Below are positions 2,308 through 33,446 of a stretch of 43,095 bases of DNA, piece by piece. The translations under genes and the position numbers were made by a program. Positions within the stretch are counted from its first letter, which is position 1. Every line of letters begins with the position of its first letter. Source of the DNA: Streptosporangiaceae bacterium (lineage in GTDB: Bacteria; Actinomycetota; Actinomycetes; Streptosporangiales; Streptosporangiaceae); assembly GCA_019239975.1 (NCBI GenBank), contig JAFAZE010000050.1, positions 1 through 43,095 on the forward strand, in the 5' to 3' direction. The notes beneath the pieces are model-generated. The model did no database searches, was not told where the DNA came from, and saw nothing but the letters and a program-made list of their open reading frames with translations.

Positions 2308-3098
2308 CCCTGTAACGGGCCGCCGTCGAAGGGCTTCCTTCCCGGGCCGACCTGGATGCCATGCGCATGCACGGTCATCGACGCCGCAACGATCAGCCCG
2401 GCGACGATGGCCGCGAACAGCCCGATCGCGGCCCAGCCGAGGAGCAGCCCGGCCAGCGCCATGCCGTCACCGCGCTGCCTGGTCTGCCGTAGCTGCCGCC
2501 GTGCCACGTGCCCGAATATGACCGCGGGAACCGCGGTCAGGCCCATGGTGAAGAACTCGCCGATGCCGCAGACCAGCGCCGCCACCGCCATGGAGTTCGT
2601 GGTCTGCGGCGGCTGTGGCGCCGGGTACCACCCGCCCTGGTAGTGCGCGGGGCCGCCGAGCGGCCCGGCGGGCAGGTCGGCGACGAGCGCGCCGAGCTCG
2701 CCGTAGGTACGGGCGGCGTAGACCCGGGTCATCCGGTCGTTGTACTCGGCCTGGGTGAGCCTGCCCTCGGCGAAGCCCGCCTTCAGCACGTCGATCGCAC
2801 GCTCCCTGTCCGCGGTCGCGGCCAGCATCCCGGGCGGCCCGGCGACGCCGCGGCCCATCGCCGGAGGCCCCGCCATGGCGGGCCCGGGAACCGCCGCGGG
2901 CCCGGGGACACCCGGCCCGGCGATCCTGGCCTGGCCATCGCCGTACCCGGCGACCCAGCCCTGACCCTGGCCGGCGCCATAGCCGTTTGCTGAGCCCGGA
3001 CCCCAGCCGGGGGCGGGCAGCTTGCCCTCGTCCCCCCACGTCGCGCCGTTCCCGTCGGCCGGGCCGAACGTGGAATCAGATGCCGGATCGACTGCCAC
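2304..3098 (-). CDS. DUF1707 and DUF4190 domain membrane protein
   Basis: About 264 residues. The N-terminal ~100 residues are Gly/Pro/Ala-rich. A DUF1707 module follows ([19 protein letters not shown], then LTQAEYNDR). Next is a DUF4190-type pair of membrane segments ([14 protein letters not shown] and [17 protein letters not shown] onward). The arrangement suggests a small membrane protein with a cytoplasmic DUF1707 domain; its function is unknown. An in-frame TTG lies at 3113, but the GTG at 3098 sits 5 nt after GGGAGG (3109-3104) and is the better start. An in-frame TTA (2315-2313) lies three codons before the TAG stop; without those last codons there would be no overlap with lepA. Confidence 0.85.
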
Positions 3099-3204
3099 CA
3101 GCGCCTCCCGCAATCAGTGCCCACTACCCAGATTAGACGCCCGCGGGCACCACATAGTGCCCGCACCGCCCGCCGGAGCGCAGGCGTAAGACACGCGTAG
3201 CACA

Positions 3205-3210
3205 TATGCT
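3205..3210 (+). promoter_or_regulatory. -10 element TATGCT for leaderless hemW
   Basis: TATGCT fits the actinobacterial -10 pattern TANNNT and ends 6 nt before the GTG at 3217, so transcription would begin at or next to the start codon. No Shine-Dalgarno sequence precedes the GTG. Confidence 0.6.
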
Positions 3211-3216
3211 CGCAAC

Positions 3217-4545
3217 GTGCCCGGGATAATGCCAGACGGCGAGCCGGTTCCCGCCGACGGGTCGCTTCCGGCCTCCGCCACGGAAGGATTCGGCCGGCGC
3301 CCGTTCGGCATCTATGTGCACGTGCCGTTCTGCCGGACGCGATGCGGCTACTGCGACTTCAACACCTACACGGCCAGCGAGCTCGGCGGCGTCTCCCGCG
3401 AGGGCTACCCGGAGCTGGCCATGGCGGAGATCACCCTGGCGAGCAAGGTCCTCGGGGCGGTCAAACCGCCCGTGCGCACCGTCTTCTTCGGCGGCGGCAC
3501 CCCGACGCTCCTGCCGCCGAAGGCGATCGGCGGCGTTCTGCGGGCGATCGACGCGGAGTTCGGCCTCGCGCCGGGCGCCGAGGTGACCGTGGAGGCGAAC
3601 CCGGAGACCGTCGGCCAGCGCGAGCTGAACGAGCTTCGCGCGCAGGGGGCGACGCGCCTTTCGTTCGGCATGCAAAGCGCGGTACCGCACGTCCTCGCGG
3701 TACTCGATCGCGTACACGAGCCCGGCCGCCCGGCTGAGTGTGCGCGGTGGGCACGGCAGGCCGGTTTCGACCACGTCAGCCTGGACCTGATCTACGGCAC
3801 GCCGGGGGAGAGCGACGACGACTGGCGGCGCTCGCTGGACGCGGCGCTCACCGCCGGGCCCGATCACGTCTCGGCCTACGCGCTGGTCGTCGAGGACGGC
3901 ACGCGGCTGGCGGCGAGGGTCCGGCGGGGCGAGGTCGAGCCGCCCGACGACGACGTGCTCGCCGACCGTTACCTGATAGCCGACGAGATGCTGACGGCCG
4001 CGGGTCTGGCCTGGTACGAGATATCCAACTGGGCCGCGAGCGCCGGCGCGCGGTGCGCCCACAACCTGCTCTACTGGACGGGCGGCGACTGGTGGGGGAT
4101 CGGCCCCGGCGCGCACAGCCACGTCGGCGGCATCCGCTGGTGGAACGTGCGGCACCCCGCCGCGTACGCCGCGCGGCTCGCCGCCGGCCGCAGCCCCGGC
4201 GCCAGCCGTGAGGTCCTCGGCCCCCGCGAGCGGTCGATGGAAAAGATCATGCTCGCGACCAGGCTGGCCGCCGGCTGCCCGCTGACCGTCCTGCCCCCCG
4301 AAGGTCTTCGGTCAGCCGAACGGTACGTGGCCACCGCCCTCCTCGACCCCTCCGCCTTCGCCGCCGGCCGAATCGTCCTCACCCGCCACGGCCGCCTCCT
4401 GGCGGACACCGTCGTCCGCGACCTGGTCGTGTTAGCCGGCCGCCCCGGTCCCCCGAACCTGGCCGGTCAGGGCCGCCAGGGCAGCCTCCATCGACCGTTG
4501 TTCGCGTGTTCGCGTGTTCGCGCTAGTGAACCATCGGGGAATTGA
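3217..4545 (+). CDS. hemW: HemW-type radical SAM protein (heme chaperone, formerly HemN-like)
   Basis: Radical SAM enzyme with the cluster motif CRTRCGYC near residue 43, followed by FFGGGTPTLLPP and the HemW core. The family was long annotated as coproporphyrinogen III dehydrogenase but is better supported as a heme chaperone. The frame codes for 442 residues, yet the family-like C-terminus is GRLLADTVVRDLVV at about residue 405. The next codon is TTA (4432-4434), and the remaining ~37 residues are Pro/Gly/Arg-rich and overlap the convergent DUF4870 gene. The GTG start follows the -10 hexamer by 6 nt, so the mRNA is probably leaderless. An internal ATG at 3229 is an alternative start. Confidence 0.92.
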   Translation: MPGIMPDGEPVPADGSLPASATEGFGRRPFGIYVHVPFCRTRCGYCDFNTYTASELGGVSREGYPELAMAEITLASKVLGAVKPPVRTVFFGGGTPTLLPPKAIGGVLRAIDAEFGLAPGAEVTVEANPETVGQRELNELRAQGATRLSFGMQSAVPHVLAVLDRVHEPGRPAECARWARQAGFDHVSLDLIYGTPGESDDDWRRSLDAALTAGPDHVSAYALVVEDGTRLAARVRRGEVEPPDDDVLADRYLIADEMLTAAGLAWYEISNWAASAGARCAHNLLYWTGGDWWGIGPGAHSHVGGIRWWNVRHPAAYAARLAAGRSPGASREVLGPRERSMEKIMLATRLAAGCPLTVLPPEGLRSAERYVATALLDPSAFAAGRIVLTRHGRLLADTVVRDLVVLAGRPGPPNLAGQGRQGSLHRPLFACSRVRASEPSGN

Positions 4546-5266
4546 TCCAGCGGGGGATCTCCCGGAACTCGCCGCGGTTGGCGGCTATCGCGCCGCGGAT
4601 CAGGTATCTCAGCATGATCAGCCAGCCGATCGTGGCGACGGGCAGCATCACGATCAGCGCGGCGCTCGGGCCGGCCAGCGCCAGCATCCCCCCGATGATG
4701 AGCCCGGACAGCGCGTACAGCACGCAGGTCAGCGTCACGTTCAGGGCCTGCGCCGCGTGCGCGCGGACGAACGGCGACCGGCCCCGCCTGGCCGTGAAGA
4801 TCACCAGCGGGGCGAACGGCCCGAGGAAGATCGCGCCCAGGTAGCTGAGCATGGACCACAGCTCTTCGGTTTCACCGAACGCCGGATTCGGCCTCGGGTA
4901 GGCGGGCGCGCCGCCGGGGCTGGTCATCCCGGCAGGGTCGGCCCCGGCCCCCTGGCCGGGCTTCGCGCCCGGGCGGGGCTTCCCGGCCGGCCCGGCCTTA
5001 CCGCCAGGTCCAGGCTTCCCTCCCGGGCCCGGGCCGCGTCCTGGGCCTGGGCCCCCTCCCGGGCCTGGGCCCCCTCCCGGGCCTGGGGCACCTCCCGGGC
5101 CCGGGCCGCCGGGAGGACCCGGGTTTCCGCCGAGGACGGGGTTGCCGCCGGTCCCGGGGACCGGCTTTCCCCCCGTCCCGGGGCCGCCCGCCGGGCGCGG
5201 GCCCTGGTGCGGCCCGGCCCTCTGGGGCCCGGTCGCCGGGCGTCCCGGCATCGCCTTGCCGGCCAC
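4523..5266 (-). CDS. DUF4870 family membrane protein with Gly/Pro repeat N-terminus
   Basis: 247 residues. The first ~130 residues are a low-complexity series of GPGG, GPGK and GKPGPGG repeats. The C-terminal ~110 residues form a DUF4870 domain (ETEELWSMLSYLGAIFLGPF, RRGRSPFVRAHAAQALN) with about three hydrophobic segments. The family has no established biochemical function. The GTG start shares one base with the TAG stop of the DUF3097 gene (ATAGTG), and GGAGGG lies 6 nt upstream, so the two genes should be translationally coupled. The 3' end overlaps the extended hemW frame by 23 bp. Confidence 0.85.
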   Translation of the reverse strand: MAGKAMPGRPATGPQRAGPHQGPRPAGGPGTGGKPVPGTGGNPVLGGNPGPPGGPGPGGAPGPGGGPGPGGGPGPGRGPGPGGKPGPGGKAGPAGKPRPGAKPGQGAGADPAGMTSPGGAPAYPRPNPAFGETEELWSMLSYLGAIFLGPFAPLVIFTARRGRSPFVRAHAAQALNVTLTCVLYALSGLIIGGMLALAGPSAALIVMLPVATIGWLIMLRYLIRGAIAANRGEFREIPRWINSPMVH

Positions 5267-6096
5267 TATTCGCCCTCCGGTACGGTCACGAAGTCGATCA
5301 GTTCCTCAACCCTGCCCAGAAGCTCGGGCTCCAGGTCGGTAAAGGTTGTCACGGAACGCAGGATGCGCCGCCACGCCGCCGCGGTGTCCTGCGGCCAGCC
5401 CAGGGCGCGCAGCACGCCTTCCTTCCACGGCTGTCCCGGCGGAACCCGCGGCCAGGCCGGGATACCGAGCGCGGCGGGCCGCACGGCGGCCCAGATGTCG
5501 ACGTAGGGATGGCCGGCGACCAGCACGTGCGGGGAGCGCGCCGCGGCGGCGATGCGGCTCTCCTTCGACCCGTCGACCAGGTGGTCCACGAGCACGCCGA
5601 GCCTGCGGCCCGGGCCGGGGGAGAAGTCGGCCACGATCGCGGGCAGGTCGTCGACGCCTTCCAGGTACTCGACCACGACCCCCACGTCGCGCAGGTCGTC
5701 GCCCCAGATCTTCTCGACGAGCTCGGCGTCATGGCGGCCCTCGACATAGATCCGGCTCGCCCGGGCGACCTTGGCCGGCCCTTTCGGCGCCGCGACGGAT
5801 CCGGAGGCGGTCCGGCCCGGCGCCGTCGCCGGATTGTGGCCTGCTCGCCGCACAAGCGTGACCGGTTTGCCGTCGAGCAGGAAACCGCGCGGCTGCAGCG
5901 GGAAGACCCGGCGGTTCCCCTTGCGGTCCTCCAGCGTGACCGCATCCTTCTCGCACTGGACGATCGCGCCGCAAAAGCGCCCGGCGGAGTCCTCCACGAC
6001 CAGCCCGGGCTCGGCTTCGACCTGAGGTACCGGCCGCTGGCCGGGGCGCCGGCGTTCTCCGGCGAGTACGTCCGGCCCGTACTGCCTGCTTCGCAC
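5266..6096 (-). CDS. DUF3097 domain-containing protein
   Basis: About 276 residues. It matches the actinobacterial DUF3097 family: [10 protein letters not shown] at the start, [33 protein letters not shown], then [20 protein letters not shown] and the [14 protein letters not shown] region. The block [14 protein letters not shown] is reminiscent of TOPRIM-like folds; that is my inference and no activity is known. The frame is open to 6186, and ATG 6111 or GTG 6096 are the realistic starts. GGGAGG lies 5 nt before 6096, so I prefer it. The gene is divergent from hrcA and forms an operon with the DUF4870 gene. Confidence 0.85.
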
Positions 6097-6174
6097 CCGC
6101 ACCTCCCTCATCCCGTCAACGAAGCGTAGCTGAACGCGTGCCCTTCTTGCTGTCGCGCGACTCTCGTGGCGCAA

Positions 6175-6180
6175 TAGACT
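6175..6180 (+). promoter_or_regulatory. Putative -10 element TAGACT of the hrcA promoter
   Basis: TAGACT (TANNNT pattern) directly abuts the CIRCE operator, so transcription would start inside the operator, as expected for HrcA repression. No good -35 hexamer is seen at 16-18 nt spacing. Confidence 0.4.
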
Positions 6181-6206
6181 TAGCACTCGGGGATTGTGAG
6201 TGCCAG
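6180..6206 (+). promoter_or_regulatory. CIRCE operator (HrcA binding site)
   Basis: The left arm TTAGCACTC is a perfect match to the CIRCE consensus. The spacer is exactly 9 nt. The right arm GAGTGCCAG matches GAGTGCTAA at 7 of 9 positions. It lies 12 nt before the hrcA start, which predicts autoregulation of hrcA-dnaJ by HrcA. Confidence 0.88.
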
Positions 6207-6218
6207 GGAGGTGAGCAC

Positions 6219-7223
6219 GTGCTTGACGAGCGGAAGCTCGCGGTGCTGCGCGCCATAGTCGAGGACTACGTGTCCACCACCGAACCGGTGGGCTCGAAGT
6301 CGCTCGTCGACCGGCACGGCCTTGACGTGTCTCCGGCGACGATCCGCAACGACATGGCGGTTCTCGAGGAACAGGGGTTCATCGCCCAGCCGCACACCAG
6401 CGCCGGGCGGATACCGACGGACAAGGGCTACCGGCTGTTCGTGGACCGGCTGTCCAGCATCAAGCCGATGTCCGCGGCCGAGCGCCGCGCCATCGAGACC
6501 TTCCTGGCCGGCGCGTACAGCCTCGACGACATCGTGACGCGGACGGTCAGGCTGCTCGCCCAGCTCACCCGCCAGGTGGCGGTGGTGCAGTACCCGTCGC
6601 TCACCCGGTCGGCGATCCGGCACATCGAGCTGGTCTCGCTCGCCCCGCAGCGGGTGCTGCTCGTGCTGATCACCGACACCGGGCGCGTCGAGCAGCGCAC
6701 GATCGAACTGCCCGACGCCGCCGACGACGAGTCGATCGCGCACCTGCGCGCGGTGCTCAACGCGTGCCTGGACGGCCGGAGACTGTCCGACGCCGCCCGC
6801 AGGGTCCACGGCCTCACGGACCGCATCCCGGACGCGGAGCGGGCGAACGCGAACGCGGTTTTTTCCGCGCTGCTTGACAACCTCGTCGAGCGGAACGAGG
6901 AGCGCGTGGTGTTCGGCGGAGCGAAGAACCTCGCGGCCCCCGATTTCGGCAAGGGATTGCGCGACGTGCTCGAGGCGTTGGAAGAACAAGTAGTGCTGAT
7001 GAGGCTCCTTGGAGAATCGTCCGACTCGCCGGCCATCACCGTGCGGATCGGCGCCGAAACGGGGCTGCTCGGCACGTCTGTCGTGTCCGCCGTGTACGGC
7101 GCCGCGGGCAACCCGATGGCGAAGCTCGGCGTGCTCGGCCCGACCAGGATGGATTATCCGGGAACCATGGGAGCGGTACGCGCGGTGGCGCGATATGTCG
7201 GCCAGATCCTGCAGGAGGCGTAG
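6219..7223 (+). CDS. hrcA: Heat-inducible transcription repressor HrcA
   Basis: 334 residues. HrcA binds CIRCE and represses heat-shock genes; its folding depends on chaperonin. The N-terminal winged helix is clear ([53 protein letters not shown]). The GAF-like C-terminal domain follows ([20 protein letters not shown]). I chose the GTG at 6219, which follows the AGGGAGG at about 6205-6211. The longer frame from 6138 would translate the operator. The TAG stop shares one base with the GTG of dnaJ (TAGTG), showing coupling. Confidence 0.95.
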
Positions 7224-8530
7224 TGGCGGTGACCGACTATTACTCGCTGCTGGGCGTGCGGCGCGACGCCGGGCCGGACGAGATCAAGCGGGCTTACCGC
7301 AGGCTGGCCAGGGAACTGCACCCGGACGTGAACCCGGACCCGGAGACCCAGGACCGGTTCAAGGAGATCACCCAGGCGTACGAGGTGCTGTCCGACCCGG
7401 ACAAGCGGCAGATGTACGACCTCGGCGCGGACCCGTTCGCGCCCGCCGGGGCCGGCGCGGGAGCGGGCGGCTTCGGCCCCGGGTTCCCGTTCAGCGACAT
7501 CATGGACGCGTTCTTCGGCGCCACGAGCGGCGCCAGCCGCGGCCCGCGCAGCCGCGCGCGGCGCGGCCGGAACGCCACCATCCGGATCGAGCTGGACCTG
7601 GCCGAGTGCGCGTTCGGCGCGACCCGCGAGCTCACCGTGGATACCGCGGTGGTCTGCCCAACCTGCTCCGGTGAGGGCACCGCGCCCGGCACCCACCCGG
7701 TGACCTGCGAGGTCTGCGGCGGCCGCGGCGAGATCAGCCAGGTGCGGCGCTCCTTCCTCGGCCAGGTGATGACCACCCAGCCGTGCCCGGCGTGCGGCGG
7801 GTACGGGACCGTGCTGCCGCGGCCGTGCCCGGAGTGCGACGGCGACGGGCGGGTGCGCACCAGGCGCACGATCAAGGTCCGGATCCCGGCCGGAGTCGAG
7901 GACGGTACCCACATCCAGCTGGCCGGCGAGGGCGAGGTCGGCCCGGGCGGCGGCCCGCCCGGTGACCTGTTCCTGGAGGTCGCGCAGCGGCCGCACGCGA
8001 TATTCGAGCGGCAGGGCGACGACCTGCACTGCACGCTGACGATCCCGATGGTGGCCGCCGCGCTCGGCGCGACCGTCTCCGTGGAGTCCCTGGACGGCCC
8101 CAGCGAGGTCGACATCCGCCCCGGCACCCAGTCCGGCCAGGTGATCCCGCTGTACGGCCAGGGCGTCAAGCACCTGAACGGCAACGGCCGCGGCGACCTG
8201 ATCATCCACGTCACCGTCGAGACACCGGCAAAGCTGGACCCCGAACAGGAGAAGCTGCTGCGTGAGCTGGCCAAGCTGCGCGGCGAGGAGTCGCCGCCCG
8301 GCAAGTTCCAGCCCGGCCAGCACGGTTTCTTCTCCCGCCTGCGCGACGCCTTTAACGGACGGTTATCCCCGGGGGGGTCGCCCAGAGGGCGACCCCCCCG
8401 GACCCCCCCGACCCGCGTGCGGTGCTCGCCGTATCATCACGCGTCCGGGGAGGCCCAGGGGCCTCCCGCGGGCCGCGTGATCGCGGAATGTGAGCCGCGA
8501 TCGCGGCTCACTCCGCGCCGCGCGCCGTAG
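7223..8530 (+). CDS. dnaJ: Molecular chaperone DnaJ (DnaJ2 type)
   Basis: Co-chaperone that stimulates DnaK ATPase. The J domain carries the HPD motif (ARELHPDVNPD). A short Gly/Phe linker follows, then four zinc-finger repeats (CPTCSGEG, CEVCGGRG, CPACGGYG, CPECDGDG) and the substrate-binding C-terminal domains. The family-like protein ends at FFSRLRDAFNGR, about residue 380. The next codon is TTA (8363-8365), and the frame runs on for ~54 Pro/Arg-rich residues through a hairpin and a palindrome. AGGAGG (7213-7218) precedes GTG 7223; GTG 7229 is an equally good start. It is coupled to hrcA by a one-base overlap. Confidence 0.94.
   Translation: MAVTDYYSLLGVRRDAGPDEIKRAYRRLARELHPDVNPDPETQDRFKEITQAYEVLSDPDKRQMYDLGADPFAPAGAGAGAGGFGPGFPFSDIMDAFFGATSGASRGPRSRARRGRNATIRIELDLAECAFGATRELTVDTAVVCPTCSGEGTAPGTHPVTCEVCGGRGEISQVRRSFLGQVMTTQPCPACGGYGTVLPRPCPECDGDGRVRTRRTIKVRIPAGVEDGTHIQLAGEGEVGPGGGPPGDLFLEVAQRPHAIFERQGDDLHCTLTIPMVAAALGATVSVESLDGPSEVDIRPGTQSGQVIPLYGQGVKHLNGNGRGDLIIHVTVETPAKLDPEQEKLLRELAKLRGEESPPGKFQPGQHGFFSRLRDAFNGRLSPGGSPRGRPPRTPPTRVRCSPYHHASGEAQGPPAGRVIAECEPRSRLTPRRAP
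8369..8401 (+). terminator. Strong GC hairpin just after the family-like end of dnaJ
   Basis: The arms 8369-8383 and 8387-8401 pair perfectly over 15 bp around a 3-nt AGA loop. The hairpin begins 4 nt after the TTA codon at 8363. It lacks a U-tract, as many actinobacterial terminators do. Its position suggests that the dnaJ coding region originally ended before it. Confidence 0.6.
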
Positions 8531-8579
8531 CCTGCTTCCAGTACCTGTAGCATCGCGGCTCACTCCGCGCCGCGCGCCG
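8490..8579. repeat. 22-bp perfect palindrome and 28-bp direct repeat
   Basis: Bases 8490-8511 form a perfect 22-bp palindrome without a loop; its left half is GTGAGCCGCGA. A 28-bp sequence beginning ATCGCGGCTCACTCCGCGCC occurs at 8500-8527 and again, identical, at 8552-8579. The first copy contains the right half of the palindrome. The block lies between the dnaJ hairpin and the rsmE promoter. Confidence 0.85.
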
Positions 8580-8614
8580 CCGTGTTACGGATCCGTCCGT
8601 GGCATCGCGCCCCA

Positions 8615-8620
8615 TAGCAT
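8615..8620 (+). promoter_or_regulatory. -10 element TAGCAT for leaderless rsmE
   Basis: TAGCAT ends 6 nt before the ATG at 8627 and no Shine-Dalgarno sequence is present. An own promoter for rsmE fits the terminator-like hairpin downstream of dnaJ. Confidence 0.55.
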
Positions 8621-8626
8621 CGTCTT

Positions 8627-9835
8627 ATGCAGCCGCCCGTCTTCCTCACGTCCCGTGGTGAGCTGGAGACGGGTGCCGTCGTTCTGTCCGGGGCGGAGGG
8701 CAGGCACGCGGCGGCGGCGCGCCGGCTGCGCCCGGGGGAGCGGGCCGACCTGGCGGACGGGGCCGGCGCGCTCGCGCAGTGCGTCGTCACCGCGGTCACC
8801 CCGGATTCTGTCTCGCTCGCCGTGCAGACCCTGCGTGTGCTGCCGCGTCCCGAGCCGCGGGTCACCGTCGTGCAGGCGCTGCCCAAGGGGGACCGGGGAG
8901 AGCTTGCCATCGAGATGATGACCGAGGTCGGCGTCGACACGGTCATCCCGTGGGCGGCCGCGCGCTGCGTTGCCCGGTGGCAGGGCGACCGTGGCACACG
9001 GGCGCTCGGCAGGTGGCGGTCGGCGGCGCGGGAGGCGGCGAAGCAGGCCCGCCGGGCCTGGCTGCCCGAGGTCACCGAGCCGCAGTCGCTGGCCGGGGTG
9101 GCGGCGCGGGTTTCCGCCGCGGCGTGCGCCGTCGTCCTCGAGCCGGACGCGCAGGCGCCGCTCAGCGGGGTCACGCCCCCGGAGGCCGGCGAGATCGTCC
9201 TGGTGGTGGGGCCCGAGGGTGGCATCAGCCCGGAAGAGCGCGCCGCGCTCGCCGCCGCGGGTGCCGCCGAGCGCCAGCTCGGCCCGACCGTGCTCCGCAC
9301 GTCGACCGCCGGGGCGGTGGCCGCCGGGATCCTGCTGAGCCGGTCCGGCCGCTGGTTAGGTACGCGTTTCCCCCGTCGGCGCGCATCCGTCCGGCGCGGG
9401 CCTTACGAGGACGAAGACGCGGGATGCTGGCTCTGGCTGCCGTTTACCGGCGTCTGGCTGCCCGACGCCGGGCTCTGGCTGCCGGACGCCGGGCTCTGGC
9501 TGCCGTTTACCGGCGTCGCGGTGCTGCTCGGGCTGGTCTCGCTCGGGGTCGGCGTCGGTGACGGTGTGGCCGTCTGGGTCGGCGTCGGCGAAGGGGTCGG
9601 GCTGACGGAGGGCGTCGGCGGCTGGCTCGGCGCAGCCGCCGTCGGCTGTGCGGTCGCGGTCGCCGACGAGCCCGGGCTCGGGCAGCTCACCATCCCGGCG
9701 CTTCTGGTCTTGCCGGTTCCCTGGGTGCCCGCGGCGACCTTGGCGACCTTGGCGCCCGGGGCCAGGCCGACCGTCCTGATGACGGCGGTGGCCGAGGAGG
9801 AGCGCGACGTCACGCCGGTTCGGCCCGGGCCGTAG
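8627..9835 (+). CDS. rsmE: 16S rRNA m3U1498 methyltransferase RsmE, frame extended at the C-terminus
   Basis: SPOUT-family enzyme that methylates N3 of U1498 in 16S rRNA. The N-terminal PUA-like part (VFLTSRGELETGAVVLSGAE) and the SPOUT knot (VVGPEGGISPEERAALAAAG, LGPTVLRTSTAGAVAAGILL) are clear. The enzyme should end at SRSGRW, residue 243, as is typical for the family. The next codon is TTA (9356-9358). The frame then runs 159 more codons as low-complexity sequence, antisense to the 3' end of the sigma-linked membrane protein gene. I regard 8627-9358 as the functional part and the rest as probably not part of the working enzyme. The ATG is 6 nt after TAGCAT. Confidence 0.88.
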   Translation: MQPPVFLTSRGELETGAVVLSGAEGRHAAAARRLRPGERADLADGAGALAQCVVTAVTPDSVSLAVQTLRVLPRPEPRVTVVQALPKGDRGELAIEMMTEVGVDTVIPWAAARCVARWQGDRGTRALGRWRSAAREAAKQARRAWLPEVTEPQSLAGVAARVSAAACAVVLEPDAQAPLSGVTPPEAGEIVLVVGPEGGISPEERAALAAAGAAERQLGPTVLRTSTAGAVAAGILLSRSGRWLGTRFPRRRASVRRGPYEDEDAGCWLWLPFTGVWLPDAGLWLPDAGLWLPFTGVAVLLGLVSLGVGVGDGVAVWVGVGEGVGLTEGVGGWLGAAAVGCAVAVADEPGLGQLTIPALLVLPVPWVPAATLATLAPGARPTVLMTAVAEEERDVTPVRPGP

Positions 9836-10896: not shown

Positions 10897-10921
10897 ACCG
10901 CCAGCCCGCCCGCCCGAAGGG

Positions 10922-12225: not shown

Positions 12226-12231
12226 TATGAT
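12226..12231 (+). promoter_or_regulatory. -10 element TATGAT for the leaderless HIT gene
   Basis: TATGAT is close to the TATAAT consensus and ends 7 nt before the GTG at 12239. It overlaps an in-frame ATG at 12227, which argues that the GTG is the real start. Confidence 0.65.
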
Positions 12232-12238
12232 CGCTCAT

Positions 12239-12583: not shown

Positions 12584-12629
12584 CGCTCGCGTCTGCGCGC
12601 GCCCGCGGGGCCGTCTTCAGGAGCATCAC

Positions 12630-13996: not shown

Positions 13997-14017
13997 GCGC
14001 CTGAACGGGGATGCCGG

Positions 14018-21546: not shown

Positions 21547-21552
21547 GGAGGG

Positions 21553-23114: not shown

Positions 23115-23130
23115 CCGCGACCCCGGTAGT

Positions 23131-23228: not shown

Positions 23229-23230
23229 GT

Positions 23231-23602
23231 CTATTCCGCGAACGCGGAAAGTCCCCGCCGGGGCGCGGGCTGAGTGCCTAACCTCGCCGCCTGGAGGACG
23301 GCGAGGGCGGCGAGAACCGCGAGCGCCGCGGCGCGCAGCAGCCTGCCGCGCGCGTCCAGCGACGGCCACGAAAGGTAGCCGATCCAGCCGAGGAAAACGG
23401 CCAGGACAAGCAGTGCGGCGGCGCCTCCGGCGCCACGCACCGCGATACCCGTGATGAGCAGCAGGGCGCCCAGCACCGGTACCACGGCGGCGGGCATCTG
23501 GCGCAGGAAGAGCAGCGGCGCGGCGCTGCGCCTTTCTATGGCGCGCCGTGAGCGCGCCGCGCCCGGGGTGCCGCCCGGCGTGGCAGGGGAACGTGACCGC
23601 AT
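23231..23602 (-). CDS. Small DUF6703-like membrane protein
   Basis: 123 residues with an Arg-rich N-terminus and about three hydrophobic segments (MPAAVVPVLGALLLITGIAV, ALLVLAVFLGWIGYLSW, LLRAAALAVLAALAVLQAA). It resembles the small actinobacterial DUF6703 family; function unknown. ATG 23602 is 7 nt after TAAGAT (23615-23610), so the mRNA is probably leaderless. The protein should end with the last membrane segment at LQAAR. The next codon is the in-frame TTA (23281-23279), followed by 15 polar residues to the stop. Confidence 0.78.
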   Translation of the reverse strand: MRSRSPATPGGTPGAARSRRAIERRSAAPLLFLRQMPAAVVPVLGALLLITGIAVRGAGGAAALLVLAVFLGWIGYLSWPSLDARGRLLRAAALAVLAALAVLQAARLGTQPAPRRGLSAFAE

Positions 23603-23609
23603 GCCCGGT

Positions 23610-23615
23610 ATCTTA
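23610..23615 (-). promoter_or_regulatory. -10 element TAAGAT for the DUF6703-like gene
   Basis: TAAGAT, read on the minus strand, ends 7 nt before the ATG at 23602 with no Shine-Dalgarno sequence between. Confidence 0.6.
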
Positions 23616-25599: not shown

Positions 25600-26390
25600 C
25601 CCGGCGGGCGGCGAAAGATCTCCGCCGCCGCCTCGTGGAACCCGGTCGGCAGCCCGGCGGCGGACATGCTGGCGGCGATCTCCCGCATCTCCGCCACCCA
25701 CCGCCAGCCCTTCGACGCCGCCGACCCCGCGGCCCGCTCCGACCGCTGCTCCAGTGCGGGCTGGGACATGGCCCACTCGGCGAGCAGGGCCTGTTCCACG
25801 CCTTCGGCGCGGGCGAGCGCCCGGACGGCCAGTATCAGCGCCGCCGTGCCCTTCGTCCACGCGGCGTAGGCGATCTTCAGCGCGGACGCCGCGAACTCCT
25901 GGCCTTCGGCGAGACGCGCGTCAACCGCCGTCCCGGCGAAAAGGTCGCGCACGCACCCGGCGCCCGCGCCCGACAGGTAGAGGCGGGTATGCCCCGGCGC
26001 CTCCGGCGGCGGCCCGATGATCCCCCCGTCGACGTAGATGGCCCCGCCCTCCCTGACGAGCCCGGCCACCCGCCGGGCCGTGGCGGGGGAGATCGCGTTC
26101 GCGTCGGTGAAGATCCCGGTGAAGCCGTGGTCCGCGACGCCGCGCGCGACGTCGAGGGCTGCATGCGGCGGGCACACCGACAAGATGACGTCGCTGCGCC
26201 GAACAAGCGCGGTCAATCGGTCGCCCGGCGGTAGGGCGGCGGCCGCCGTCAGCCCAGCCGAAGCGGCGCGCGAAGCGGTCGCGGTGCCGCGACCGGCGGG
26301 ATCCCACAGCACCGTGTGCCCGGCGCCCACCAGGCAGCGCCCGATCGCCGCGCCCATCTCTCCCGGATGCAGCAGCCCGATGACCGTCAT
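25596..26390 (-). CDS. NAD(P)-binding 6-phosphogluconate dehydrogenase-like protein (DUF1932 type)
   Basis: 264 residues. The N-terminal Rossmann fold has [20 protein letters not shown], then [20 protein letters not shown]. The second domain ([20 protein letters not shown]) fits the DUF1932 family of beta-hydroxyacid dehydrogenase relatives, with Lys in ALKIAYA at the expected catalytic place. Substrate unknown. ATG 26390 has AAGGAG 7 nt upstream. The gene is convergent with glyS and abuts a pseudogene on the same strand. Confidence 0.85.
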
Positions 26391-26394
26391 GCGC

Positions 26395-26879
26395 GCTCCT
26401 TCCCGCGGCCCCGCACACCAGTGTGCACAGCACCTTCGTCCCGTCCGGCGTGATCCGCAGCATCCCGGTCGGGCTGCAGCTCAGTGGGCGCCCAGGCCCG
26501 GGTCCGCCAGTGACCGGAACAGAAAAGACCGGCCGGCTGTCCGCGAACAGGTCGTTTCCGGGGGCTGCGGTATCGAGCACCCGAATGGTCTGTACGCCGA
26601 TACTGAGCGCCAGCGAGTGCCCTCCGTTCAGCCACGTCAGGGTGTTAGTGGCATCCAGGCTGCGGGAACGGCTGGGTGTCAACGACGAACGTCCGGTCAT
26701 CGGCGGCGCCGGTGGTGCCCACGAACACGCTGTGCGCGGGCGGGCTCCAGACGCAGCGGAGGCAGCTCATCCACCGCGTCGCCGAGGGCGCGGGCCGCCG
26801 CCCGCACCCGGTTTTCAACAGCGCCGATACCGCCCGGCGGCCCGAGCATCACCTGCGGCTGCGGCGCGTTGGTGTCCAT
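26395..26879 (-). pseudogene. Internally deleted relic of a WD40-like membrane protein
   Basis: Three pieces of one gene family appear in order on the minus strand. The N-terminus begins at the ATG 26879-26877 (AVENRVRAAARALGDAVDEL, then PPLRL). A middle piece in another frame reads VFVGTTGAADDRTFVVDTQP. A C-terminal piece reads TLTWLNGGHSLALSIGVQTI, then RVLDTAAPG and ITPDGTKVLC. In actinobacteria these belong to a membrane-anchored propeller-like protein of ~350-400 residues. Here the membrane segment and most of the propeller are missing, and no proper stop is kept. It is a decaying remnant. Confidence 0.6.
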
Positions 26880-26956
26880 GTATGAGAGACGCCGGCGCCG
26901 GGCCGTAGTTGCCTGGCATGCCGGCATCAGCCTGCCGCGATCCGCCCGCGGCCGAC

Positions 26957-26987
26957 TTGCCGGTAACCGTGCCCGGGCCGGTAGAGT
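26957..26987 (+). promoter_or_regulatory. Putative ppdK promoter TTGCCG-19-TAGAGT
   Basis: A -35-like TTGCCG (26957-26962) and a -10-like TAGAGT (26982-26987) precede ppdK, giving a leader of about 35 nt that holds the Shine-Dalgarno site. Confidence 0.35.
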
Positions 26988-27028
26988 CCCGAACATCCGG
27001 ACTATCAAGCGGCGGCGAGGAGTATTCA

Positions 27029-29710
27029 GTGCCGAAGCTCGTTTACGACTTCACAGAAGGCAACAGGGACCTCAAGGACCTTCTGGGCGGCAAGGGCGCC
27101 AACCTGGCGGAGATGACCAATATCGGCCTTCCCGTCCCCCCAGGTTTCACGATAACCACGGACGCCTGCCGGTATTACCTGAAAAACGGCACCACGCCCG
27201 AGGGTCTCGGCGAGGAGGTCGGCGCCCATCTCGAAGACCTGGAACGGGCGATGGGCAGGAAGCTCGGCGATCCCGCCGACCCGCTGCTGGTCAGCGTGAG
27301 GTCCGGGGCGAAGTTCTCCATGCCCGGCATGATGGAGACGGTGCTGAACATCGGCCTGTCCGACGAGTCCGTGCACGGCCTGGCCAAGCAGGCCGGCAAC
27401 GAGCGGTTCGCGTGGGACTCCTACCGCCGCCTCATCCAGATGTTCGGCAAGACCGTGCTGGGCATCGACGGCGAGCACTTCGAGCACGCCATCGAGCAGG
27501 CCAAACAGGCCAAGGGCGTCGCCAACGACGTCGACCTGGACGCCCGCGACCTGCAGAACCTCACGCAGACCTTCAAGGACATCGTCAAGGCGCAGGCCGA
27601 CAGGGAGTTCCCGCAGGACCCGCGGGAGCAGATGGACCTGGCGATCAACGCCGTGTTCAACTCGTGGAACGCCGACCGCGCGATCCTCTACCGGCGCCAG
27701 GAGCGCATCCCCGCCGACCTCGGCACCGCGGTGAACGTCGTGGCGATGGTCTTCGGCAACCTGGGCGCGGACTCCGGCACCGGGGTCGCGTTCACCCGCG
27801 ACCCGGCCTCCGGAGCGCAGGGCGTCTACGGCGACTACCTGCAGAACGCGCAGGGCGAGGACGTCGTGGCCGGGATCAGGAACACGGTGCCGCTGCAGGA
27901 TCTCGAGCGCATCGACAAGGCGTCCTACGACCAGCTCATGGACATCATGGCCACGCTGGAGAACCACTACAAGGACCTGTGCGACATCGAGTTCACGATC
28001 GAGCGCGGCAAGCTGTGGATGCTGCAGACCCGGGTCGGCAAGCGCACCGCCGCCGCGGCGTTCCGCATCGCGATCCAGCTCGTCGACCAGGGCCTGATCG
28101 ACATGGACGAGGCGCTGCAGCGGGTCACCGGCGATGAGCTGGCCCGGCTGATGTTCCCCAGGTTCGACACGGGCGGCGAGACCACGAAGATCACCACGGG
28201 CGTGAGCGCGTCGCCCGGTGCCGCCGTCGGCAAGGCCGTCTTCGACTCGGCGAAGGCCGTCGAGCTCGCCGGCAAGGGTGAGCAGGTGATCCTGGTGCGG
28301 CGCGAGACCAACCCGGACGACCTGCACGGCATGATCGCGTCGCGCGGCATCCTCACCAGCCGCGGCGGCAAGACCAGCCACGCGGCGGTGGTTGCCCGCG
28401 GCATGGGTAAGACGTGCGTCTGCGGCGCCGACGAGCTCAACGTCGACACGAAGGCGGGCAGGTTCACCGGCCCCGGCGGCGTCACCGTCAGCGCGGGCGA
28501 CGTGATCTCGATCGACGGCACGTCCGGTGCGGTCTACCTGGGCGAGGTGCCCGTCGTGCCGTCCAGCGTCGTCCGCTACTTCGAGGGCGAGCTGGCGCCC
28601 GACTCCGACGAGCTGGTCTCCGCCGTGCACAAGATCCTCACGCACGCCGACGAAAGGCGCAGGCTCGGCGTGTACGCCAACGCCGACACCGGCCCGGACT
28701 GCGCGCGGGCGCGCCGGTTCGGCGCCGGCGGCGTCGGCCTGGTCCGCACCGAGCACATGTTCCTCGGCGAGCGCCGCCAGCTCGTCGAGCGGCTGATCCT
28801 CGCGGAGGACGACGCGGAGCGCCAGGCGGCGCTCGACGCCCTGGAGCCGCTGCAGCGCGGCGACTTCGCGGAAATCCTGGACGCGATGGACGGGCTGCCG
28901 GTGACGATCCGGCTGATCGACCCGCCGCTGCACGAGTTCCTGCCCGACCTTACGGACCTGTCGGTGAAGGTGGCGCTGGCCGGCGACAACGCCACCGAGA
29001 AGGACAGGAAGCTGCTCGACGCCGTGCGCCGGCTGCACGAGCAGAACCCGATGCTCGGCCTGCGCGGCGTCCGCCTCGGGCTGGTGATCCCCGGCCTGTT
29101 CGACATGCAGGTCCGCGCGATCGCGCACGCCGCCGCGCAGCTCAAGCGGGCGGGCAAGAACCCGCGGCCTGAGGTCATGATCCCGCTCACCGCGACCGTG
29201 CAGGAGATGGAGATCACCCGCGAGGAGACCGCGAAGGTCCTCCGGGAGGTCGAGGAGGAGACCGGCACCCACGTGCACACCCTGATCGGCACGATGATCG
29301 AGGTGCCGCGGGCCGCGATGACCGCCGGCGAGATCGCGAAGTACGCCGAGTTCTTCTCGTTCGGCACGAACGACCTGACCCAGATGGGCTGGGGGTTCTC
29401 CCGCGACGACGTGGAGGGCGCGTTCTTCAGCAGGTACATCGACCTGGGCATCTTCGGCGTCTCGCCGTTCGAGACGATCGACCGCGACGGCGTGGGCCGG
29501 ATGGTGGACATCGCCGTCCGCGAGGGCCGCGCCGCACGGCCCGAGCTGGAGCTCGGCGTCTGCGGCGAGCACGGCGGCGACCCGGACTCGGTGCACTTCT
29601 TCCACGAGGTGGGCCTGGACTACGTGTCCTGCTCGCCGTTCCGCGTGCCGGTGGCCCGGCTGGAGGCGGGCCGCGCCGCGGCGGTCACGGCAGGGAGCGA
29701 CACGAGGTGA
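27029..29710 (+). CDS. ppdK: Pyruvate, phosphate dikinase
   Basis: 893 residues, the usual length. PPDK interconverts pyruvate, ATP and phosphate with PEP, AMP and pyrophosphate. The ATP-grasp domain starts at [20 protein letters not shown]. The swivelling phosphohistidine domain has [20 protein letters not shown], with His as the phosphate carrier. The C-terminal PEP barrel has FGTNDLTQM and the catalytic-Cys loop [10 protein letters not shown]. The start is GTG 27029 with GAGGAG (27017-27022) 6 nt upstream; the frame is open to 26909. The TGA is followed after 1 nt by the dgt start. Confidence 0.97.
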
Positions 29711-29711
29711 G

Positions 29712-31037
29712 GTGACCGAGGGCTACGACGGCCACGACACGGAGCGCTGGGCGGCCGAGCCGCCCAAGCGCCCCGGCCGCACACATTTCCAGCGGGACCG
29801 CGCCCGCGTGCTGCACAGTTCCGCGCTGCGCAGGCTCGCCGCGAAGACGCAGGTCGTCCAGGTCGGTGCCAGCGACTTCCCGCGCACCAGGCTGACGCAC
29901 TCGCTGGAGTGCGCGCAGATCGGCCGTGAGCTGGGCGCGGCGCTGGGCTGCGACGCCGACCTCGTCGACGCGGCGTGCCTGGCGCACGACATCGGCCACC
30001 CTCCGTTCGGCCACAACGGGGAGTCCGCTCTCGCCGACCTGGCCGCCGCGGGCGGCGGGCTGGCGTGCGGCGGGTTCGAGGGCAACGCGCAGTCGCTGCG
30101 GCTGCTCACCCGGCTGGAGCCGAAGGTCCCCGGCGCCGGCCTGAACCTGGCCAGGGCGACGCTCGACGCGGCGCTCAAGTACCCGTGGATCGGCGAGGGG
30201 GCGGGCAAGTACGGCGCCTACGCCGACGACGCGGAGGTCTTCTCCTGGATCCGCTCCGGTGCCCCGGCAGGGCGCCCGTGCCTGGAGGCTCAGGTGATGG
30301 ACTGGGCCGACGACGTGGCGTATTCGGTGCACGACGTCGAGGACGGCCTGCACGCCGGACTCATAACGCTCAAAAATCTTAAGGATTCTTCCGAACGGGC
30401 GGTGGTGGCAGCGACGACGCTCGCCACCTACTGCCGGCCGGGCTGGGCGGCCAGCGTGGCGGAACTCGCCGAGGTGTTCGGCGAGTTCATGGCGCTGGGG
30501 TTCTGGCAGTTCAGCTTCGACGGCGGCCCGGCGTCCCTCGCGGCGGTGAAGAACCTCACCAGCGAGCTCGTCGGCCGCTTCTGCCGCGCCGCCGAGGACG
30601 CCACGCTGGGCCGCGTGTCAGAGCCCCCCAGCCCTCCAAATCCTTCAAGCCACTCAAGCCCCAGAGACCCTGTTGCCCCCGTAAGTCACTCGAACCACAA
30701 CAACCCCGCCGCGCCGCGCCGTCCGCTCACCCGGTACGCCGCGTCCCTGGTCGTGCCGCGGCGCCAGCTTCTCGAGTGCGCTCTGCTCAAGGGCGTCGCG
30801 GCCCAGTACGTGATGAGCCGTGAGGGCGCGGCGGCGCAGCAGGCGCGCGAGCGCGAGCTGATAGCCGAGCTCGCGTTCGCCGTGCAGCGCGGCGCGCCTC
30901 GGACACTCGACCCGGTGCTGCGGCCCGCCTGGGCGGCGGCCGGGACGGACGAGGCGCGCCGGCGTGTCGTGATCGACCAGATCGCCTCGCTCACCGACAC
31001 GTCCGCTATCGTCTGGCATCGTCGCCTCTGCCAGTAG
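29712..31037 (+). CDS. dgt: Deoxyguanosinetriphosphate triphosphohydrolase-like protein
   Basis: 441 residues. HD-superfamily dNTPase that splits dNTPs into nucleoside and tripolyphosphate. The HD residues are seen in [18 protein letters not shown], then [18 protein letters not shown] and the later [18 protein letters not shown]. An insert of ~35 residues rich in Ser, Pro and Asn ([24 protein letters not shown]), with lower GC than the rest, lies near residue 310. The gene follows ppdK by 1 nt. In Mycobacterium dgt is next to dnaG; here about 5.4 kb lie between them. Confidence 0.93.
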
Positions 31038-31118
31038 GTCTGGGGTCGAACGTTCCGCCGGAGGCAAGCGTCGCAGTAGCGTCTGTATCAGCGGTCCCAG
31101 CCATCCCGGGAGGTTCGC

Positions 31119-32333
31119 ATGCCAGTGTTCGTGATCGCCGGTGCCGGGCTGGCCGGTGCCAAGGCCGCGGAGACGCTGCGTTCGGAGGGGTTCGGCGGTG
31201 ACGTCGTGCTGCTCGGCTCGGAGCCGGAGCGGCCCTACGAGCGACCGCCGCTGTCCAAGGGTTACCTCCTCGGCAACGAGGAGCTGTCGTCGGCCTACGT
31301 GCATCCCGAGAAGTGGTACTCCGAGCACGATGTGGACCTGCGCACCGGCGTAACGGCCGACGCGGTCGACCCCGCCGCGCACTCGGTGACCTTCGGCGGC
31401 GGTACGCTCCGCTACGACAAGCTGCTGCTCGCCACCGGCGCGTCACCGCGCCGGCTCGACGTTCCGGGCGCCGGACTGGACGGCGTGCTCTACCTGCGCA
31501 CGATGCCGGATTCCGAGCGGCTGCGCGCCGCGTTCCGCGGCGCCCCGAGGGTGGTCATCGTCGGCGCCGGCTGGATCGGCCTGGAGACCGCCGCGGCCGC
31601 GCGCCAGGCGGGCTGCGAGGTCACGGTCGTCGAGCCGCAGCCGGGCGCGCTGCACGCCCACCTCGGCCCCGAGCTCGGCGGCGTGTTCGCGGACCTGCAC
31701 CGTTCCCACGGTGTCCAGTTCCTGTTCGGCCAGTCGGTGGCGTCGATCCGCGGCGACGGCGGCCGGGTCGCCGGTGTCGCGCTGCCCGGCGGCGACGAGC
31801 TTCCGGCCGGCCTGGTGATCGTCGCCATCGGCGTGCTGCCCAACGCCGGGCTGGCCGCACGGGCCGGGCTCGAGGTCTCCAACGGCGTGCTCACCGACGC
31901 GGCGCTGCGCACGTCGCACCCGGACATCTTCGCCGCCGGCGACGTCGCCAACTCGCTCAACCCGCTGCTCGGCAGGCGGGTCCGCGTCGAGCACTGGGCG
32001 AACGCCCTGAACGGCGGCCCGGCCGCCGCCCGCTCGATGCTCGGGCAGGACGTCAGCTACGACCGCGTCCCGTACTTCTACACCGACCAGTACGACCTCG
32101 GCATGGAGTGCGCCGGCCTGCCCGATCCCGGCACCTACGACCAGGTCGTCTACCGCGGCGACCGGGACGCCCTGGAGTTCGTCGCGTTCTGGCTGTCCGC
32201 CGGCCGCGTGACAGCGGGCATGAACGTCAACGTCTGGGACGTCAACAACGACATCCAGTCCCTGATCCGCTCCGGCCGCGCGGTCGACACCGCCCGCCTG
32301 TCCGACCCCAGCATCCCCCTAACCGAGGTCTAG
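31119..32333 (+). CDS. FAD-dependent ferredoxin/rubredoxin reductase-type oxidoreductase
   Basis: 404 residues. It has two dinucleotide-binding motifs, FAD at IAGAGLAGAKAAETL and NAD(P) at VIVGAGWIGLETA. The ATGASPRRLDVPG and HPDIFAAGDVA blocks and the reductase C-terminal domain (YFYTDQYDLGMECAGLP) place it with reductases that feed P450s or dioxygenases through ferredoxin. No ferredoxin or oxygenase gene is nearby, so its partner is unknown. GGGAGG lies 5 nt before the ATG. It stands alone between dgt and a repeat-rich convergent spacer. Confidence 0.92.
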   Translation: MPVFVIAGAGLAGAKAAETLRSEGFGGDVVLLGSEPERPYERPPLSKGYLLGNEELSSAYVHPEKWYSEHDVDLRTGVTADAVDPAAHSVTFGGGTLRYDKLLLATGASPRRLDVPGAGLDGVLYLRTMPDSERLRAAFRGAPRVVIVGAGWIGLETAAAARQAGCEVTVVEPQPGALHAHLGPELGGVFADLHRSHGVQFLFGQSVASIRGDGGRVAGVALPGGDELPAGLVIVAIGVLPNAGLAARAGLEVSNGVLTDAALRTSHPDIFAAGDVANSLNPLLGRRVRVEHWANALNGGPAAARSMLGQDVSYDRVPYFYTDQYDLGMECAGLPDPGTYDQVVYRGDRDALEFVAFWLSAGRVTAGMNVNVWDVNNDIQSLIRSGRAVDTARLSDPSIPLTEV

Positions 32334-32344
32334 CCTCCCCGCGC

Positions 32345-32463
32345 GCCCGCTTCGCGTCCCGAGCGCCTCCCCGCGCGCCTGCTTTGCGTCCCGAGCGTCC
32401 GCTTTGCGTCCCGAGCGTCCGCTTCGCGTCCCGAGCGTCCGCTTCGCGTCCCGAGCGCCTCCC
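32345..32463. repeat. 20-bp tandem repeats
   Basis: The unit GTCCGCTTCGCGTCCCGAGC is repeated about five to six times, with CTTTGCG variants and GCCTCCCC edges. It follows the oxidoreductase stop directly. No gene is seen. Confidence 0.8.
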
Positions 32464-32518
32464 CGAACGTCCACCGCCCCTCGCCCGCCAGTACAAATCG
32501 GACAGCCATCATGATCAG

Positions 32519-32553
32519 GGAAACGCCGGGTCGTATGTGACACCCTCGTTTCC
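32519..32553 (-). repeat. Dispersed GGAAA...TTCC repeat, copy D (reverse orientation)
   Basis: 35 bp from GGAAA to TTTCC. Read on the minus strand, its core GGTGTCACATACGACCC matches copies B and C. It is flanked by TGATCA on one side and GCGATCA on the other, which extends the dyad. It lies between the convergent oxidoreductase and HAD genes. Confidence 0.82.
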
Positions 32554-32633
32554 GCGATCAAGGGGTGCGGTGCTGGTGTGGCGGATGTGACTGGCGCGGG
32601 CCGCTTCGGGTGGGGCTGACGTTGTGGTTGCGG

Positions 32634-33446
32634 CTAACGTTGCTGACGTGGCCGGGACGGCCCGCAGGCAGCCGACGGCCGAACGCCACTAATGACGCAA
32701 ACGGGTAATTGTCCGCCGTCGTGCACGGCGCTGAGGAGGAGGCAGGTGTCGGTCAGGTCGGGGAGGACGGCGTGGGCGCCGGCCGCGGCCAGGTCGGCCG
32801 CCGGGTACGCCCCCGTGGCCACGGCGACCGCGCGGGCGCCGGCCGTGAGCGCCGCCGCGACGTCCAGCGGCGTATCGCCGACGAGCACCGTCGCCGCGCC
32901 GTCAAACGCACTCCCGTACGCCGCCCGGGCGCGTTGCCTGGCCAGACCGACGAGCTCCGCCCGTACCTCATGGGCGTCGCCGTACGCGCCGGCGTCCAGG
33001 TCGAGGTGAGCGAGCAGTCCGGCCGCGCCGAGCTTGGCCTCGGCGAGCGGCCGGATGTTCCCGGTAAGCACCGACTGCCGGACCCCGCCGGGACGGGCCG
33101 TCGCGTCCAGGGCTGCGCGGGCACTCAGTGCCGCGAGCGCGTTTGCAGCGCCGGGCAGGGCCCTGGCGCGCGCCCGGGCGACGTCGCCGGACGCGGCCGC
33201 GTGCTTGCCAAGCAGGGCTATGAACGCGTCGACGTGCTCCTCCGGCCGCGGCACCGATGCCCGTGCCAGGGTCGCCAGGATGATCGCCCGGTCGGTACGC
33301 CCGGCCATCGGCGCCAGCTCCGGCAGCGGCCGGCCGAACATCTGGCTGAAGACGACCTGGTACAGGTCAGCACCCAGCCCCCCGGAATTGACCAGGGTGT
33401 AGTCGATGTCCCACAGGACCAGCAGCTCACCGCCGGTGCCGGTCAT
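32634..33446 (-). CDS. HAD superfamily hydrolase
   Basis: 270 residues. Haloacid-dehalogenase-type phosphatase: motif I is LVLWDIDYTLVNSGG (nucleophile Asp), motif II is SVLTGNIRPLAEAKL, and motif IV is ATVLVGDTPLDVAAAL. A helical cap lies between I and II. Substrate unknown; it resembles phosphoglycolate phosphatase-like members. The ATG at 33446 overlaps the TGA of a truncated DUF1089 gene (ATGA). The family-like part ends near AVHDGGQ. The next codon is the in-frame TTA (32708-32706), followed by ~23 Pro/Arg/Ala residues. Confidence 0.87.
   Translation of the reverse strand: MTGTGGELLVLWDIDYTLVNSGGLGADLYQVVFSQMFGRPLPELAPMAGRTDRAIILATLARASVPRPEEHVDAFIALLGKHAAASGDVARARARALPGAANALAALSARAALDATARPGGVRQSVLTGNIRPLAEAKLGAAGLLAHLDLDAGAYGDAHEVRAELVGLARQRARAAYGSAFDGAATVLVGDTPLDVAAALTAGARAVAVATGAYPAADLAAAGAHAVLPDLTDTCLLLSAVHDGGQLPVCVISGVRPSAACGPSRPRQQR

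Follow-up and report, generated by a model that had tools for sequence, protein, structure and literature searches.

TTA as a probable fourth stop codon in a Streptosporangiaceae genome carrying an SKY-type release factor 2

The stretch of DNA analysed here, which we call the window, is a contig (C121) of 43,095 nucleotides from a Streptosporangiaceae bacterium, whose assembly (G000) comprises 6,414,775 bases in 176 contigs and is 92.87% complete and 1.44% contaminated. Our subject is the TTA codon, which occurs in frame in six genes of the window, and the release factor that might read it. The original prediction listed six in-frame TTAs and offered termination at TTA as one of their possible meanings. 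All six are present, in frame and at gene ends, starting at positions 4432, 8363 and 9356 of the forward strand and 2315, 23281 and 32708 of the reverse strand. When genes are called under the standard code with a simple codon-score caller, those of the window contain exactly these six TTAs and no further one, and all six turn into gene ends once TTA is counted as a stop.

On the forward strand lie hemW (3217..4434, with a match to the HemW model TIGR00539), in which 405 codons are followed by TTA at 4432-4434, dnaJ (7223..8365; 380 codons, TTA at 8363-8365) and rsmE (8627..9358; 243 codons, TTA at 9356-9358). On the reverse strand we find a membrane protein (2313..3113, TTA at 2315-2313), a small protein of uncertain start (23279..23497, TTA at 23281-23279) and a HAD hydrolase of 246 codons (32706..33446, TTA at 32708-32706). 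The first two of these had been labeled DUF1707 and DUF6703; NCBIfam matched neither protein. From the TTA to the ordinary stop in the same frame there are 2 codons in the membrane protein, 36 in hemW, 54 in dnaJ, 158 in rsmE, 15 in the small protein and 23 in the hydrolase. The sequence past the TTA scores -0.68 per codon in hemW and -1.09 in the hydrolase.

Each TTA had been placed at or near the C-terminal boundary of its protein, and the observation is confirmed. In dnaJ and rsmE the models stop directly before the TTA (NF010871 ends at 378 of 378 at residue 380, NF008693 at 245 of 246 at residue 243). Pfam HAD covers residues 10-199 of the hydrolase and Hydrolase_like residues 173-233, with the TTA as codon 247, and the TIGR00539 match stops at 360 of the 405 residues of HemW. 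For the HemW orthologues listed from 29 other genomes, the alignment reaches residue 403-405 in 28 and residue 400 in the one from G013, and six listed frames of 404-407 amino acids fit an end at the position of the hemW TTA. The hairpin predicted to follow dnaJ was located at 8375..8395 on the forward strand, nine bases beyond the TTA; it has a perfect 9-bp stem and a 3-base loop, and from its sequence it is terminator-like.

We have examined the behavior of TTA in 1.18 Mb of G000, made up of the window and 40 loci (782 kb, on which the codon score was also trained) and 20 loci outside the training (400 kb). For each codon preceded by 40 coding codons we asked whether the next 40 still score as coding. 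The sequence after TTA was noncoding at 31 of 34 sites. For the conventional stop codons the corresponding values were 91% (TGA), 86% (TAA) and 66% (TAG), and for the top sense codon 28%. In the first 782 kb, TTA gave 88.5% of 26 sites, compared with 91.3% for TGA, 82.1% for TAA, 67.7% for TAG and 34.2% for AGA, the top sense codon; in the 400 kb outside training all eight TTA sites were noncoding downstream. CTA, by contrast, was followed by noncoding sequence at only 25 of 96 sites in the 1.18 Mb (Fisher p 2e-11 for TTA against CTA), and TTG and TCA also behave as sense codons in this test. The control consisted of 1.39 Mb in 75 loci surrounding RF2 genes, mostly of Streptomyces, with one of Microbispora and a few of other actinobacteria. 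The score trained on G000 fits these loci less well, the top sense codon there being ATT at 50.5%, yet TTA was noncoding downstream at 2 of 17 sites and coding at 15 of 17, a distribution different from that in G000 (Fisher p 3e-8).

In a second test one codon at a time was added to the set of stops, the genes were called again and the total scores compared. The seven codons covered were TTA, CTA, AGA, TCA, ATA, CAA and CGA. Treating TTA as a stop raised the score of G000 by 3757 bits, while each of the other codons lowered it (CTA -1059, AGA -1577, TCA -5153, ATA -10430, CAA -2650, CGA -2365). In a mostly Streptomyces subset of the control, the 36 loci L110-L145, adding TTA lowered the score by 354 bits. 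With TTA included, 906 genes are called in G000, of which 563 end in TGA, 170 in TAG, 112 in TAA and 61 in TTA, and the TTA-ended genes are spread over 22 of the 29 sampled contigs. Conversely, calling with the standard code yields 882 genes with 49 TTAs; 40 are at gene ends, four are second TTAs within tails, one is internal and four are not plainly terminal. The tails after TTA do not differ detectably in length from those after TGA, TAG or TAA (Mann-Whitney p 0.18, 0.46 and 0.88), and a search in G000 for a surplus of nearby back-up stops after TTA found none. Efficient termination at UUA would produce both results.

Protein families and orthologous genes were compared with these ends. Thirty of the 61 TTA-ended proteins of G000 were read through the TTA and scanned with Pfam, and in 29 of them no listed family has a best stretch that extends past the TTA. 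The NCBIfam models stop short of the codon by 0-6 residues in DnaJ, RsmE, SerRS, DAHP synthase and serine ammonia-lyase, by 14 in ClpP and by 45 in HemW, and the DUF3117 model ends at residue 52 of 55 in a TTA-ended protein. We compared 22 of 30 DnaJ loci, together with RsmE, and 7 of 30 serS loci. At the dnaJ codon that is TTA in G000, 15 of 21 relatives have TGA or TAG, with three more if unaligned end residues are counted; the remaining three have their stop one codon earlier (two relatives) or two codons later (one relative). The rsmE gene of G013, a separate assembly from another genus, has TTA at the same codon as G000, followed by an unrelated tail of 205 codons, and of 20 other relatives 15 have an ordinary stop there (14 directly, one on counting unaligned residues) and five one codon later. 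The terminal codon of serS is TTA in G000 and in G012, with an unrelated 16-codon tail in the latter, and TAG in G013, whose protein is 77% identical; four other relatives compared, about 41% alike, end at most three codons from it. Across these orthologues TTA is exchanged for TGA, TAG and TAA. The SerRS proteins of G000 (L311:6598-7857, reverse strand), G012 and G013 (L371, L372) are divergent, being 77-78% identical among themselves and about 36-47% to the other SerRS of relatives. The G000 gene is the sole SerRS match in that genome.

We turn now to the tRNA that would read UUA. ARAGORN was used to read all 41 tRNAs matched by Rfam in G000, and none has the anticodon UAA; the leucine anticodons found are CAA, CAG, GAG and TAG. 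A long-arm tRNA-Leu(UAA) is present in Streptomyces scabiei, G023, G026 and G029. In the Streptosporangiales genomes read (L400-L409, L360, L186, L245) there is a short tRNA of about 75 bases that has UAA at the anticodon place and lacks the long variable arm. Its loop region reads CCTAAAA, with C at position 33, in G005-G007, G009, G010, G012, G016-G019 and Trebonia. A BLAST search for this short tRNA in 19 genomes of the family gave no match in G000, G013 and G015, and the two genomes richest in TTA stops are among these three. Two further tRNA observations may be recorded. ARAGORN places a 94-base tRNA-Thr(GGU) at 4890-4983 of the window, which is absent from the Rfam tRNA search list, and locus L347 of Trebonia (contig C3:78400-80800, on a 185-kb contig) holds a dense array of 22 tRNA genes by ARAGORN.

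G000 has three PF00472 genes, encoding RF1, RF2 and a third protein (L003). RF1 carries a normal-looking PVT motif and was therefore rejected as an altered reader. L003, presumably an ArfB-like rescue protein, was also rejected as a reader of UUA, since we read it as of ArfB type and lacking the codon domain. The single RF2 found reads RISKYDNQGRRQTS where RF2s in the PDB read RISPFDSSGRRHTS, so that the tripeptide SKY replaces SPF. The SPF and PXT motif names are borne out by PMC8131318. The protein is full-length and has GGQ, and its residues 10-363 align with full-length RF2 from the PDB, the first domain included. Checks on tRNAs and release factors had been suggested together with the original prediction and proved productive: no UAA tRNA was found in G000, and it is RF2, not RF1, that is unusual.

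SKY is found in the RF2 of G000, G010, G012, G013, G016 and G018 and at loci L104 (Trebonia) to L108; the genome containing L106 shares coordinates with G013. G019 has SQY, G015 has SAY, and G029 and three Streptomyces have SPY; G026 stands outside this survey. In G001 and G030, both listed as at least 98% complete, the search for an RF2 match returned none and found only an RF1 match. Among the best 120 of 7997 database matches, taken together with P0001 and the RF1 P0002, 117 of 122 have SKY, two SAY and one SRY, and two lack a motif match, one of them being RF1 P0002. In a tree of 36 RF2 rows chosen from the sampled loci the ten SKY rows form one clade (support 99/98), which SQY adjoins (84/96). 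Residue 207 is lysine in all ten SKY rows and in none of the 21 SPF or SPY rows, which have proline there; in SPY, tyrosine is present in outgroups, which suggests that this residue alone is insufficient for the change, and on comparison of these sequences the lysine is the diagnostic change in RF2. The serine of the tripeptide is kept in all SKY, SQY and SAY rows read. Away from the ends, the other residues with no overlap between SKY and SPF/SPY proteins are 140 (Ala versus Val, Ile or Ser) and 148 (Asn or Gly versus Met and others). Both lie within the stretch aligned with GAGGTESQDWGSM, adjoining a Gly and a Glu, and we assume that this stretch of RF2 also contacts the first base of the stop codon. 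In RF1 such Gly and Glu residues make contacts with that base (PMC3974865).

The relatives extend the observation beyond one assembly. In G013, 11 of 177 called genes end in TTA (one counted twice, at L365 and L268) and counting TTA as a stop gains 531 bits. The other SKY genomes have few such genes: 1 of 46 in G012 (+13 bits), 2 of 64 in G010 (+19), 1 of 30 in G016 (0) and 1 of 13 in G018 (+8). In Trebonia 10 of 324 called genes are TTA-ended (+198 bits, some loci overlapping); with so few sites, we rejected the idea that it is a heavy user of TTA stops. In the seven-codon test described above the changes were +553 bits for G013, +154 for Trebonia and -15 for a smaller set of SPF relatives. 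G015, with SAY, is at most a candidate for a further case: it has no TTA site in 124 kb in the downstream test, and 1 of its 110 called genes ends in TTA (+309 bits). Ten of 25 TTA-ended cases from G010, G012, G013, G016 and Trebonia were scanned, and in all ten the best family stretches end before the TTA; examples are a NAD-glutamate dehydrogenase from G010, two proteins from G013 (a sigma factor and an enoyl-CoA hydratase), and a TetR regulator and ispE from Trebonia, where the ispE model reaches 306 of 310 at residue 302 and the TTA is codon 306. Within SPF relatives TTA can be found inside genes. It is codon 138 of a Microbispora sigma factor, within Sigma70_r4 (121-169), and codon 268 of an AraC-like regulator of G008, within HTH_18 (230-308), and in G011 it lies inside a coding stretch.

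We conclude, with a probability of about 0.83, that UUA is a fourth stop codon in G000, whose predicted reader is the SKY RF2, with 61 of 906 genes ending in TTA. Termination at TTA, as originally suggested, thus has support throughout the genome, from more than one genus and from the named strain Trebonia kvetii. Release of the peptide at UUA by the SKY RF2 itself is probable, because there are organelle precedents for it (PMC12574857). A possible course of events can be proposed. In a GC-rich ancestor UUA would have become very rare, and the tRNA reading it would have been lost or have degenerated. Replacement of proline by lysine in the middle of the RF2 tripeptide, with changes at two residues of the second stretch, may then have allowed U to be accepted at the second codon position, after which stop codons would have been free to mutate to TTA. 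On balance, and with more reserve, we also favor the broader view that a clade of free-living bacteria including Trebonia kvetii made a sense codon into a stop by way of this Pro-to-Lys change, and that codon capture can be followed stage by stage in its living members: TTA encodes an amino acid in SPF relatives, SQY and SKY genomes have a worn tRNA(UAA) and few TTA stops, and in G000 and G013 no such tRNA was found and TTA makes up about 6% of gene ends.

A different account is that UUA is unassigned, so that the ribosome stalls there and rescue by tmRNA or an ArfB-like hydrolase, not RF2, ends translation. A tmRNA is present in L060, the third PF00472 gene, L003, would supply the hydrolase if it is ArfB-like, as we read it, and no UAA tRNA was found in G000. 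Rescue would nevertheless be hard to sustain at 61 of 906 gene ends, among them serS, dnaJ and an ABC-F-like gene, and this account leaves aside the clade-wide change of the RF2 tripeptide and the resemblance of the tails to those after ordinary stops; we consider it improbable. It is very unlikely that TTA still encodes leucine and that the sites arose through base-call errors or the recent loss of stops, in proteins with long tails. Most of the genomes used, that of the window included, are draft assemblies, and the frames do reach ordinary stops, but the same terminal TTA recurs with unrelated tails in rsmE of G000 and G013 and in serS of G000 and G012. These are separate assemblies of different genera, so the suggestion of base-call errors or randomly mutated stops is not supported; nor does any other sense codon, or any of the six others tried as a stop, behave like TTA. 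In addition, Trebonia kvetii has TTA ends, and its record is that of a named strain without a metagenome-assembly label. If it is a cultured isolate, as we take it to be, the TTA ends are not a product of draft metagenome assembly.

To two further explanations we give hardly any credence. TTA might be a rare leucine codon under regulation of the bldA type as in Streptomyces, and this is indeed a GC-rich actinobacterium in which TTA is rare. Yet no UAA tRNA was found in G000, the TTAs of called genes are almost all terminal and the genes concerned include housekeeping genes, whereas the mostly Streptomyces controls hold TTA inside genes, with coding sequence after it at 15 of 17 sites; the stalling meaning that had been suggested on this model is likewise not supported. 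Alternatively UUA might provoke a +1 frameshift into a stop (TTAG or TTAA) in the manner of a hungry codon, as TTAG at three of the six window sites could indicate. Only G or A after TTA creates such a stop, however, and the next base is C in 20, G in 18, T in 17 and A in 6 of the 61 genes, so that 24 of 61 qualify, which contradicts frameshifting as the general mechanism.

A number of observations count against UUA being a stop read by the SKY RF2. One gene of G000 has an internal TTA: L308:4202-6895 (reverse strand), an AfsR-like regulator with BTAD, NB-ARC and TPR regions, has it at codon 368 between NB-ARC and TPR. With a third-position GC content of 0.75 the gene ranks near the 1st percentile of the 882 genes, which suggests recent lateral arrival; its product would be cut off after the NB-ARC domain if TTA is a stop. 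The four TTAs that are not plainly terminal are codon 105 of L036:6804-7382, codon 67 of L056:1286-1633, codon 17 of L298:16032-16340 and codon 6 of L311:9745-12012, two of these frames being short and weak, while in the other two the TTA is close to an assumed start. One qualification concerns the window itself: the 158 codons past the rsmE TTA have a weak coding score (0.31 per codon), although the relatives have no such tail. Absence of one tRNA is weak evidence by itself in a genome 92.9% complete, where tRNA-Tyr and tRNA-Gly(UCC) were also not found, and the SKY relatives G010, G012 and Trebonia and the SQY genome G019 retain the short tRNA gene with UAA at the anticodon place, as do G016 and G018, where ARAGORN reads the anticodon as AAA.

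The relatives contribute further points of the same kind. The TTA ends of Trebonia are few, and two of them stem from a duplicated transposase-like fragment (L197); its downstream test gave stop-like behavior at one of three sites in 301 kb and three of five in 393 kb. In G019, 2 of 65 genes are TTA-ended and TTA as a stop costs 103 bits. In SPF relatives, too, 6 of the 182 called genes are TTA-ended (-37 bits); two of the six TTAs lie inside domains, these being the ones checked against families and described above. In G013 (L217-L222, L361-L366), CTA as a stop likewise gains 442 bits. The connection with RF2 is a correlation across one clade, and the published UUA-reading RF2s are altered at the serine (Ser204) that is kept here (PMC12574857).

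Within the open-access literature searched, which takes in few subscription papers and no bioRxiv, a change of UUA from sense to stop is described only in organelles. UUA serves as a stop in labyrinthulean mitochondria, and UUA and UCA do so in peDinoflagellate plastids, in both cases tied to changes of RF2 at Ser204, and the plastid example is called the first sense-to-stop change outside mitochondria (PMC12574857). What is shared with G000 is the conversion of leucine UUA to a stop, a change in the codon loop of an RF2-type factor and, in the plastid case, a normal-looking RF1. Here, on the other hand, the genome is a bacterial one of 6.4 Mb, the RF2 changes are Pro to Lys and Phe to Tyr with the serine retained, and UCA is sense, also by the gene-model test. 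Retention of the serine means that the solution differs from that of the organelle RF2s. Marsupiomonadales mitochondria use UUR stops, and removal of codons by pressure toward GC is one scenario given for them, but there mtRF1a is altered and UUG is a stop as well (PMC12574857), whereas in G000 TTG is sense and the PVT motif of RF1 looks normal.

Among bacteria, TTA in actinobacteria is treated as a rare leucine codon (PMC4255298). Rarity of TTA in a GC-rich actinobacterium is common to bldA control in Streptomyces and to G000, but in the former it is read as leucine by a dedicated tRNA, and in the latter it stands at gene ends and a search for such a tRNA found none. An S-x-Y tripeptide is known from PrfH (RFH). 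In the review exchange of PMC1586002 the reviewer states that selections on RF2 never yielded tyrosine at the third place; according to the authors, phenylalanine is always third in RF2 and PrfH has SXY. PrfH lacks domain 1, however, while the protein described here is a full-length RF2 with that domain and the only RF2 found in its genome. Codon reassignment in bacteria is also the subject of the Codetta screen (PMC8629427), whose introduction gives the bacterial changes known beforehand as UGA from stop to sense; the change proposed here runs from sense to stop. As that method does not model stops and expects a '?' for them, it would probably have missed a sense-to-stop change, which would resemble a rare unassigned codon.

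Few sense-to-stop changes are known. For the annotation of G000 itself, gene finders using table 11 would give about 1 in 15 of its proteins (61 of 906) a false tail. If the reading is true, the SKY protein would be a natural RF2 of new codon specificity, of use to biochemistry and to engineering of the code. In a bacterial case that includes a named strain, the order in which codon loss, tRNA loss and change of the release factor occurred becomes directly testable.

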